Origin: Candidatus Zambryskibacteria bacterium RIFCSPHIGHO2_01_FULL_46_25
GTDB taxonomy: Bacteria; Patescibacteriota; Minisyncoccia; Phycocordibacterales; Zambryskibacteraceae
Direction of reading: 5' to 3'
DNA: 42,826 bases
NCBI GenBank assembly: GCA_001825155.1
Contig: MHVH01000001.1
Span: 1-42,826 of the forward strand
Made by a program: the position numbers and the translations under genes. The notes under the pieces are model-generated. The model was not told the origin of the DNA. It worked only from the letters and a program-made list of their open reading frames with translations, and made no database searches. Of the stretch, positions 24,306 through 26,787 are shown piece after piece (within the stretch, counting starts at the first letter, position 1; every line of letters starts with the position of its first letter).

Positions 24306-25154
24306 TTATATCATTTGTTTAAGTTTGTAAGCATTCCCATGCTTGAGCATTCCTAAATACGAAGCTCTCGATTCTTCAGACGGATTGATACTTAAATTCT
24401 TCCTCATTCTTCTCTTCGTCACCGTTCTCAAGACTCTATGGTCTGGAAAATGCACCCAACCCAAAAAATCTACACCAGAAGAAAGAGTTTTAATAAAAAC
24501 TTTATCGGGATGAAGTTGTAGTTTTAATTTTTCATTTAGGAATAGTTCGATATATCGAACTATTCCTACCAGATGATTTTTGTCGTGAGATAGAAAAACA
24601 AAGTCATCGGCGTATCTAATGTAATACCTTATCTTCAGTTTATGCTTAACGAACTGGTCAAATTTGTTCATGTAGACATTAACCAAAAGTTGAGAAGTGA
24701 GGTTGCCCAGAGGTAATCCTTTACTAGGAGCAGTTTCAAAGCTTTCGATAATCTGAGTTAGAAGCCAAATGACATTCTCGTCCTCGATGTAATTCAATAC
24801 GATATATCGTAGTGAATCGTGGTCTATGGAAGCGAAGAATTTTTTGATGTCACACTTCAAAATCCAGTATTGTTTGGTGTTGTTTTTAGACACTTTGCCT
24901 GCAAAATACTTGAATCTTTCCAGAGCTTTGTGCGTGCCTTTGTTTATACGGCAAGAATATGAGTCGGAGATGAACTTTTTATCGAAATAGGGATAAAGAA
25001 CTCTGTAGATAGCATGATGCAAGAGTCTATCTCGGACGGAAGCTTTGTGGATGTTTCTGGGCTTGGGGTCAGAAATGTTGAAGGCGTGATAAGGACCGTG
25101 GGTGTAGGTCTTATTTTTTAAATCCTGATGGAGAGCAAGGATATTGTCCATCAA
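24306..25154 (-). CDS. DGR-type reverse transcriptase; homologous sequence continues upstream in frame to ~25276
   Basis: DPKPRNIHKASVRDRLLHHAIYRVLYP, ILKCDIKKFFASIDH, GLPLGNLTSQLLVNVYMNKFDQFVK (DGR-like GxxxSQ motif), YIRYADDFVFLS (YADD). Upstream in-frame FNRFCHTYEHIISVENLLEAWKEFLNGKRGKRDVQEFHLNL fits an RT N-terminus. Confidence 0.92.
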   Translation of the reverse strand: MMDNILALHQDLKNKTYTHGPYHAFNISDPKPRNIHKASVRDRLLHHAIYRVLYPYFDKKFISDSYSCRINKGTHKALERFKYFAGKVSKNNTKQYWILKCDIKKFFASIDHDSLRYIVLNYIEDENVIWLLTQIIESFETAPSKGLPLGNLTSQLLVNVYMNKFDQFVKHKLKIRYYIRYADDFVFLSHDKNHLVGIVRYIELFLNEKLKLQLHPDKVFIKTLSSGVDFLGWVHFPDHRVLRTVTKRRMRKNLSINPSEESRASYLGMLKHGNAYKLKQMI

Positions 25155-25276
25155 ATTTAAATGGAACTCTTGGACGTCTCGTTTACCACGCTTGCCATTT
25201 AGGAATTCTTTCCAGGCTTCAAGCAGATTCTCAACCGAGATGATATGCTCATAGGTATGACAGAACCTATTAAAAG

Positions 25277-25286
25277 CCCCCCCCCC
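25277..25286. repeat. 10-nt homopolymer C/G tract between avd and RT 5' ends
   Basis: + strand taaaag(C)10aacggg. Confidence 0.95.
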
Positions 25287-25294
25287 AACGGGTT

Positions 25295-25660
25295 TTGCCC
25301 GGAGTTTTGGAAAAGATTAAGTGTGCTTATGTTGTCTGGCATAAAACTCATATAATTCTACCCCAAGTAAACCGATATACACTCGGAAACAAGATCGATA
25401 AGTTATTTATCGAGATAATAGGAAATGTCAGCGCTGCATCTTTCCTGCCGAAAGAGGAGAGGTTACCGGACGTGAGAAAATCAATCAGGAAACTGGACGT
25501 ACTTAAAATCTTGCTAATGGTCTTATGGGAGACAAAATCGATTACAAACAAAAAATATATTGAAATTTCTTCATTCCTAGATGAAATCGGAAGAATGCTT
25601 GGAGGTTGGCGTAATCAAATTTTAAAACAAAACTCCCAAACCGAAGTCTGGGAGAAATGA
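25295..25660 (+). CDS. avd: DGR accessory protein Avd-like (four-helix bundle)
   Basis: LPQVNRYTLGNKIDKLFIEIIGN...RLPDVRKSIRKLDVLKILLMVLWETKSITNKKYIEISSFLDEIGRMLGGWRNQI; start TTG as given or further upstream across the C tract. Confidence 0.85.
   Translation: MPGVLEKIKCAYVVWHKTHIILPQVNRYTLGNKIDKLFIEIIGNVSAASFLPKEERLPDVRKSIRKLDVLKILLMVLWETKSITNKKYIEISSFLDEIGRMLGGWRNQILKQNSQTEVWEK
25628..25655 (-). terminator. Rho-independent terminator after the TR (UUCG tetraloop)
   Basis: Minus strand ctcccagac ttcg gtttgggag ttttgtttt; 9-bp stem with one G-T wobble; embedded antisense in the avd 3' end. Confidence 0.7.
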
Positions 25661-25670
25661 GAGATTTGCG

Positions 25671-25766
25671 CACGCCCGCGAAGCGGTAGTTCCGGTTCCA
25701 CCTATTGTCGTTCCGGTTGACGTTCACCCTACGCTTGCCGTCGTTGCGGTTGAAGATCGCGTAGCA
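25671..25766 (-). repeat. DGR template repeat (TR)
   Basis: Aligns without gaps to 26091-26186 (offset 420). In frame it reads CYAIFNRNDGKRRVNVNRNDNRWNRNYRFAGVRK with AAC/AAT codons at variable positions. Confidence 0.88.
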
Positions 25767-25986
25767 TTGTACAATAAGCCATCTTTGCCACTGCCCCTCG
25801 AATACTCTTGGAGCTGTACAGTATTCCGCATCATAATGCGTTAGCTTACCATACCAAGTATCTTCATTTTTTGAGTTTGCATGCGCTACTCTTTCCGAAA
25901 CCTTGGTCGCGGAAATTCTCGGCGCATGGATACTGGATTCGGGGACTGGAAACCTTGGTCGCCAATACTTCCCTACTACCACGAAT

Positions 25987-25992
25987 ATTATA
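25987..25992 (-). promoter_or_regulatory. Candidate -10 (TATAAT) for TR RNA
   Basis: Minus strand tttttgtataat between the target-gene terminator and TR; no convincing -35. Confidence 0.3.
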
Positions 25993-26002
25993 CAAAAATT
26001 CA

Positions 26003-26030
26003 GGGCGAGCATTCTTGCGAATGCTCGCCC
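26003..26030 (-). terminator. Rho-independent terminator of the DGR target gene
   Basis: Minus strand gggcgagcattc gcaa gaatgctcgccc tgaattttt; perfect 12-bp stem. Confidence 0.8.
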
Positions 26031-26081
26031 AAGAGCTAGAGCCAAAGGATCTAGAAAACCCAGAAGCCCAAGCTCTAAGAA

Positions 26082-26696
26082 TCACTTGCGGACGCCCGCG
26101 AAGCGGTAGTGCCGATACCACCTGCTGCCGCGCCGGCGGACGTCGACGCCGCGCCTGCCGCCGCCGCGGCCGAAGATCGCGTAGCAAGCACGACCCCGCT
26201 TGTCTCGCCACTGAACGGCAACAGGTCGCTCGTCGGCGAAGGCGGGATCGTCGGCCATGACTTGTGCCACAGCGGCGGGGTCGGGGCGAAGACCGTGGGC
26301 TTCATACTCGCGGTCAAGTTCGTCGACTGTCGGGTCGTAGTCGAGTTCGAAGAACTCGACTCTATCCTTCGCCAGCCCCTCGAGCGGCATCTCGGCGAGG
26401 ACTTCCTCGTCGATGTACCACTTGATGCGACCGGTGGCATCAACCACCTGTGCCGCCGTCTTGGTGCGGTCGACCTTGACCGCCCGACGAATGATGTTCG
26501 ACACCATCTCGACGCGCTTCTGGAACAACGCGAACATTTCGCTCGCGAGCTCCTGCATGCCGAGAACCGTTTGCACAGTCTCCGCCTGGAACTCTCCGGC
26601 ATGCTTCTCGAGCAACGCCCGGTAGTTCGCGACAGCCTTGTTGATCTGTCCCGCCGTTGTAACCTGCTGTTCGGACGGGATCATGGTTTTAGCCAT
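26082..26696 (-). CDS. DGR target protein with C-terminal variable region
   Basis: MAKTMIPSEQQ...; C-terminus CYAIFGRGGGRRGVDVRRRGSRWYRHYRFAGVRK matches the TR translation at fixed positions and differs at every TR Asn codon; ATG at 26696 has an SD (gggag). Confidence 0.85.
   Translation of the reverse strand: MAKTMIPSEQQVTTAGQINKAVANYRALLEKHAGEFQAETVQTVLGMQELASEMFALFQKRVEMVSNIIRRAVKVDRTKTAAQVVDATGRIKWYIDEEVLAEMPLEGLAKDRVEFFELDYDPTVDELDREYEAHGLRPDPAAVAQVMADDPAFADERPVAVQWRDKRGRACYAIFGRGGGRRGVDVRRRGSRWYRHYRFAGVRK
26091..26186 (-). repeat. DGR variable repeat (VR)
   Basis: Paralogous to TR; 16 of 21 mismatches lie at TR coding-strand adenines. Confidence 0.88.
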
Positions 26697-26758
26697 GGCG
26701 TCGTCTCCCAAGCTGCGCTGGCATGCGGTAAATCCGCACCCATCAGCTTCTGTTTTCA

Positions 26759-26787
26759 ATTATACACCCAAATTAGATTTATGTCAA
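26759..26787 (-). promoter_or_regulatory. Consensus sigma70 promoter TTGACA-N17-TATAAT of the DGR target gene
   Basis: Minus strand ttgaca taaatctaatttgggtg tataat. Confidence 0.85.

Follow-up and report, generated by a model that had tools for sequence, protein, structure and literature searches.

We found that the 42,826-nt window of DNA analysed here carries a diversity-generating retroelement (DGR) of a CPR-restricted clade in which hypermutation is, on comparative grounds, very likely under a simple-sequence-repeat phase switch. The evidence consists of the anatomy of the locus, the conservation of the repeat, the conservation of the start codon and the statistics of the reading frames. 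We also consider it likely that stochastic phase control, of Avd alone or of both Avd and the reverse transcriptase (RT), extends across this CPR clade and that paralogous DGRs in one genome can write each other's targets. The genome, 582 kb in seven contigs, includes the window as its contig C1.

The initial annotation had proposed a DGR with an RT, an Avd-like gene, a template repeat (TR) and a target gene with a variable repeat (VR) at 24306-26787. All four were found there, and all DGR components lie inside this interval (Table 1). The locus is a genuine DGR of a type known from CPR bacteria, with RT, Avd, TR, VR and target. It had also been called complete; all the parts are present, but in the assembled sequence a G tract puts the bodies of both Avd and RT out of frame with their putative start codons. 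The annotation was right about the DGR and missed the antisense Avd, the repeat tract, a second DGR in the genome and a mismatch between template and target.

Table 1. Features of the DGR in the window and of its paralogue (window positions, unless a contig is named).
Feature	Position	Strand	Remarks
DGR RT body, GLPLGNLTSQ and YADD	24306..25274	-	conserved from FNRFCHTYEHIIS motif to stop
Probable Avd start ATG 25257 and short leader before C tract	25257..25276	+	ATG antisense to RT His codon
Homopolymer tract, proposed phase switch	25277..25286	.	G10 on RT strand, C10 on Avd strand
Putative RT leader 5' of G tract	25287..25351	-	ATGs at 25351 and 25342; MSFMPDNISTLNLFQN...
Avd body after tract, LPGVLEKIK...	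25287..25660	+	antisense to RT; from Pfam bAvd and phase analysis
Terminator-like hairpin just after TR1	25633..25654	-	
Template repeat TR1	25666..25766	-	101-nt match to VR1, adenine-biased mismatches
Promoter-like site for TR RNA	25830..25857	-	TTGGTA-16-TATGAT, consensus match
Terminator-like hairpin after target gene	26003..26030	-	
Target gene, MAKTMIPSEQQ...FAGVRK	26082..26696	-	VR at C-terminus
Variable repeat VR1	26086..26186	-	3' end of target gene, ending at stop codon
Predicted target promoter	26759..26787	-	TTGACA-17-TATAAT, 12/12 consensus matches
DGR2 (L034, L004)	C6:118694-120238, continuing C3:1-899		split over two contigs sharing a 70-base overlap

The RT scored 84.4 bits against Pfam RVT_1 (cut-off 29.6), and its best match among solved structures in the PDB was 8ub7 (E 1.4e-42; next best 2.8e-22), a chain which we take to be the RT of Bordetella phage BPP-1. 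The DGR type that had been assigned to this RT was upheld by the RVT_1 score and the PDB match. By RT, the closest named relatives are Candidatus Zambryskibacteria, where RTs 75% identical to that of the window occur, and other CPR bacteria. A collection of viral contigs yielded only two relatives, in line with a cellular element. A third RT of the genome, at C5:174607-175293 (L002, 418 aa), is unlike a DGR RT.

TR1 and VR1 form a gapless pair of 101 nt, and the adenine bias in their mismatches that had been described was confirmed: 16 of the 27 adenines differ, compared with 6 of the 74 other bases (Fisher p = 3e-7). With these six non-A mismatches, the neighbouring TR is an imperfect template of this VR. 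Across the 95 related loci with a detectable TR/VR pair, VR always lies upstream of TR, and 1602 of 2727 adenines were changed versus 99 of 6645 other bases. Mutagenic retrohoming by the DGR of the window is predicted from comparative evidence of this kind.

The same genome carries DGR2, a diverged paralogue that is laid out in the same way and has a tract of G9 (C6:120064-120072). When VR1 was compared with TR2, 18 of 29 adenines and 0 of 72 non-A positions differed (p = 9e-13). The chance of finding 0 of 72 non-A mismatches is about 1e-9 at 25% divergence and 2.6e-3 at the divergence between TR1 and TR2. Because VR1 fits TR2 perfectly and has six non-A mismatches to TR1, VR1 was probably last written in trans by DGR2 and not by its own TR1. 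It is less probable, though worth serious consideration, that TR1 wrote VR1 and drifted afterwards. The related locus G004 agrees with such a drift, as TR1 is derived at five of the six sites that discriminate between the two templates. However, the base of VR1 at the sixth site is the one found in TR2, whereas TR1 and G004 have another, and VR1 equals TR2 at all 72 non-A positions despite only 67-76% identity between DGR1 and DGR2 outside TR. We therefore favour writing in trans by DGR2. At the second locus, VR2 (C6:119156-119259) fits its own TR2 less cleanly than VR1 does, with three non-A changes as well as an insertion of 3 nt.

A promoter-like site lies upstream of TR and a terminator-like hairpin downstream, and this arrangement suggests that TR would be transcribed as a discrete RNA. 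The same promoter-like site was found 92 nt before TR2, and a similar hairpin 3' of TR in most of 28 loci tested. An Rfam search gave nothing above threshold. The target of DGR2 is 65% identical to that of the window and is preceded by an equivalent TTGACA/TATGAT site; homologues also occur in other genomes of the genus. The target matched no Pfam family, and its AlphaFold2 model, built with five sequences, had a mean pLDDT of 38.6 and was unusable. Weak PDB matches of residues 107-151 to protein A fusions were taken as chance. The target gene is GC-rich (0.64 around 26001-26500, contig 0.48), as if acquired or under a different codon pressure.

RT and Avd are arranged head-to-head, and their 5' ends overlap across the G10 tract. 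For comparison, 80 CPR loci were fetched with the RT of the window as a discovery set, 76 of which have Avd. The order target, TR, Avd, RT and similar spacings are common to the 80 loci, and the DGR in the window has this standard layout of the CPR clade in order and spacings. Avd was antisense to RT in 75/76 discovery loci and in 42/42 loci with Avd of an independent replication set. The suggestion that layout and target might be undescribed is only partly right, as the layout itself is common in the CPR-restricted clade. As the loci share ancestry, the p-values given here should be read as nominal; the best protection against this dependence comes from the replication set and from the sister pair L130/L131.

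The Avd of the window scored 40.1 bits against Pfam bAvd (cut-off 40) and 52.6 bits against NCBIfam DivGenRetAVD (NF033474), under the cut-off of 80. Its start codon was examined in the related loci. The RT contains a motif H-T/S-Y/F, and the codon CAT of its first His reads ATG on the Avd strand. At this antisense His codon, the discovery loci used CAT 59 times and CAC never, against 663 CAT and 484 CAC at other RT His codons (p = 2.6e-14). The replication loci showed the same bias (CAT 34, CAC 0; others 389/278; p = 2e-8), the share of CAT at other RT His codons being about 58%. Some loci without that His retain an out-of-frame CAT close by. In the related loci, the repeat separates the antisense ATG from the Avd body downstream. 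The frame was open from this ATG into Avd in one tract phase in 57/63 discovery loci, the six exceptions being mostly misassigned ATGs, and in 31/31 replication loci. The peptides read from it resemble M..PPP..LPxLxKxKxAYxLWH. All 109 repeat loci had an ATG before the tract in one or more phases, whereas shuffles gave a mean of 56 and a maximum of 69. Avd of the window therefore probably starts at 25257, the ATG antisense to the conserved RT His codon, rather than at 25295. From 25257, the Avd body is out of frame at the assembled G10 and in frame at G11 or G8. At the junctions of L037, L047, L052 and L053, a short inverted repeat stands beside the G tract at the Avd start.

We then looked at the tract itself. 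Related loci amounting to 718 kb contained 68 G/C runs of at least 8 at the Avd/RT junction and 3 at other places. When simple repeats in general were searched for, 109/118 related loci proved to carry one at the junction, of the types G(7-12) in 92, GA in 15, CT in one and ATTG in one. In two pairs of sister loci the repeat type was swapped at the same spot: (ATTG)7 in L165 against G9 in L194 (85% identical), and (GA)12 in L134 against G8 in L184 (84% identical). Repeat type follows the RT tree, with 17 changes against 24.9 for shuffled labels. Across these loci, it is repetitiveness that is conserved at the junction, and not sequence, strand or unit length. Roles of the G run as a polypurine tract, a Shine-Dalgarno sequence or a G-quadruplex were discarded, as the tract can be CT or ATTG. 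Two other runs were seen in this genome. A G10 run at C5:40146-40155 follows the MTKLLR of a secreted beta-helix-like protein, which would be in frame at G8 or G11, and a C9 run at C7:3684-3692 lies within short overlapping ORFs of doubtful coding status. The organism may use poly-G switches at further genes, for example at the possible surface gene at C5:40146.

The phase of the tract was next scored. With any in-frame ATG counted as ON, a liberal definition, Avd was ON as assembled in 32 of the 109 repeat loci (29%), consistent with the one third expected at random phase (p = 0.42). Under a stricter definition, with the antisense-His ATG only, the counts were 12/63 in the discovery set and 5/31 in the replication set, below one third. 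All 77 OFF loci were restored to ON by one repeat unit more or less. ON/OFF state changed 26 times on the RT tree, no fewer than with shuffled labels (27.7), and carried no phylogenetic signal. The sisters L130 and L131, the one clean pair of this kind, are 92.6% identical over 900 nt and have a single internal indel, a difference of two GA units in the tract that leaves RT and Avd OFF in L130 and ON in L131. In the genome studied here, DGR1 (G10) and DGR2 (G9) are both OFF as assembled and both would be ON at G8 or G11, homopolymer lengths in assemblies being subject to possible off-by-one errors. A repeat between start codon and gene body, random phase and a length difference between near-identical loci were thus all found, as at contingency loci.

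The tract might instead be a site of programmed frameshifting or transcription slippage that gives constant low levels of Avd and RT with no inherited switch. Long G/C runs are plausible slippage sites, and 77/109 loci are out of frame as assembled. We regard this as improbable, since the shifts needed go in both directions, 29% of the loci are already in frame, and GA, CT and tetranucleotide ATTG repeats are not typical slippery sites. Moreover, 8 of the 9 repeat-less loci are ON (p = 7e-4), and the ninth, L132, has kept a GA remnant.

A structural or regulatory role of the tract, as an R-loop, G-quadruplex, binding site or promoter spacer, with non-AUG starts downstream and a length irrelevant to the frame, is also quite improbable. 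The tract does lie between two divergent genes, and in many loci, including the window (25295), a TTG or GTG is found in the Avd frame downstream of it; such a codon could give tract-independent Avd. However, about 21 loci have no ATG, GTG or TTG in the Avd frame after the tract. Nor does this role explain why the antisense ATG ahead of the tract is completely conserved, and the repeat varies in sequence, strand and unit length while only its repetitiveness is kept. A decaying or mis-assembled cassette, with the G10 frame break as a pseudogene mutation or assembly error, is hardly credible: homopolymers are error-prone and TR1 has drifted from VR1 by six non-A mismatches, but the repeat is position-specific in 109/118 loci with frames otherwise intact, and 40/63 OFF loci have TR/VR pairs free of non-A mismatch, which were therefore written recently. 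OFF loci were not staler than ON loci by non-A TR/VR mismatches (1.00 versus 1.12, p = 0.50). This null result, which counts against the phase switch, would be explained by fast reversible switching, but also by a tract without importance.

Whether RT is switched together with Avd depends on the subtype. In most related loci an RT ATG is present downstream of the tract, which would leave Avd as the only switched gene. The second subtype, to which DGR1 and DGR2 both belong, has no RT start codon after the tract and carries a conserved RT leader before it, MP.NI..LNLFQN or M..NI.PNQISLFD. The RT of the window does not begin at the TTG at 25154; its conserved N-terminus extends up to the G tract, and the RT frame downstream of the tract contains no ATG, GTG or TTG. 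Only a tract of G11 or G8 would join the putative leader to the RT body in one frame; the leader is kept in relatives, and its phase is the same as that of Avd. RT and Avd were in frame at the same tract length in 28 of the 32 loci with an RT start before the tract. As assembled, RT was in frame in only 2 of the 32 loci of this co-switched subtype (L100 and L131), fewer than at random. This deficit might reflect selection for the OFF state or an unrecognised start codon, such as a non-AUG one.

In the DGR cycle, RT and Avd copy the TR RNA with errors at adenines, and the cDNA replaces VR. Here, RT with Avd would copy a short TR RNA made from a promoter of its own and ended at a terminator of its own, adenines would be mutated, and the cDNA would overwrite VR of the target gene, following the established DGR mechanism. 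RT and Avd would be transcribed head-to-head. Their 5' ends overlap, and within this overlap the G10 tract separates the putative start codon of each gene from its body. Replication slippage would lengthen or shorten the tract and so shift the reading frame. Avd alone would switch in most relatives; Avd is essential for cDNA synthesis (PMC6642488). In the subtype of the window, where the same tract lengths bring both RT and Avd into frame, a single slippage event could turn hypermutation on or off. From the sequence comparisons we infer both that the tract slips in living populations and that its frame affects expression and mutagenesis.

DGRs are widespread in CPR, and it is a puzzle how such small genomes afford a standing hypermutator. 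If the phase switch operates, a heritable random switch would at any moment confine mutagenesis to a minority of the cells, and the populations that diversify VR should be predictable from reads across this short tract. A DGR of the CPR clade that appears broken may be in a reversible OFF state. Automatic annotation is affected too: at the tract, gene callers will cut Avd and RT short or break them in two.

CPR DGRs form their own clade, DGR clade 2 (Roux 2021, PMC8144416), and clade 2 DGRs show lower than average activity in metagenomes (Roux 2021, PMC8144416), for which the switch, if true, is one explanation. The DGR of the window shares with clade 2 (PMC8144416) the host group, RT relatives throughout CPR, adenine-biased TR/VR differences, a C-terminal VR and a target with no known domain. 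The descriptions of clade 2 that were consulted mention neither an antisense Avd nor a conserved repeat tract nor frame switching. No title or abstract in the literature searched described a DGR phase switch. Relative to known DGRs, we provisionally regard the repeat-gated head-to-head overlap of Avd and RT as new. With the BPP-1 DGR, the prototype with Avd and brt, the element shares the nearest RT structure (8ub7), an Avd-like bundle and A-to-N mutagenesis. In BPP-1, Avd runs in the same direction as the other genes, whereas Avd of the window is antisense to RT, and no repeat switch is known in the BPP-1 DGR. The poly-G and short-repeat contingency loci of Neisseria, Campylobacter and Haemophilus share with this DGR a repeat close to the start codon that is prone to slippage, an ON/OFF phase that is random among isolates and several repeat types. 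Unlike at those loci, the switched genes in the window would be the hypermutation machinery itself, and one tract here could switch two overlapping divergent genes.
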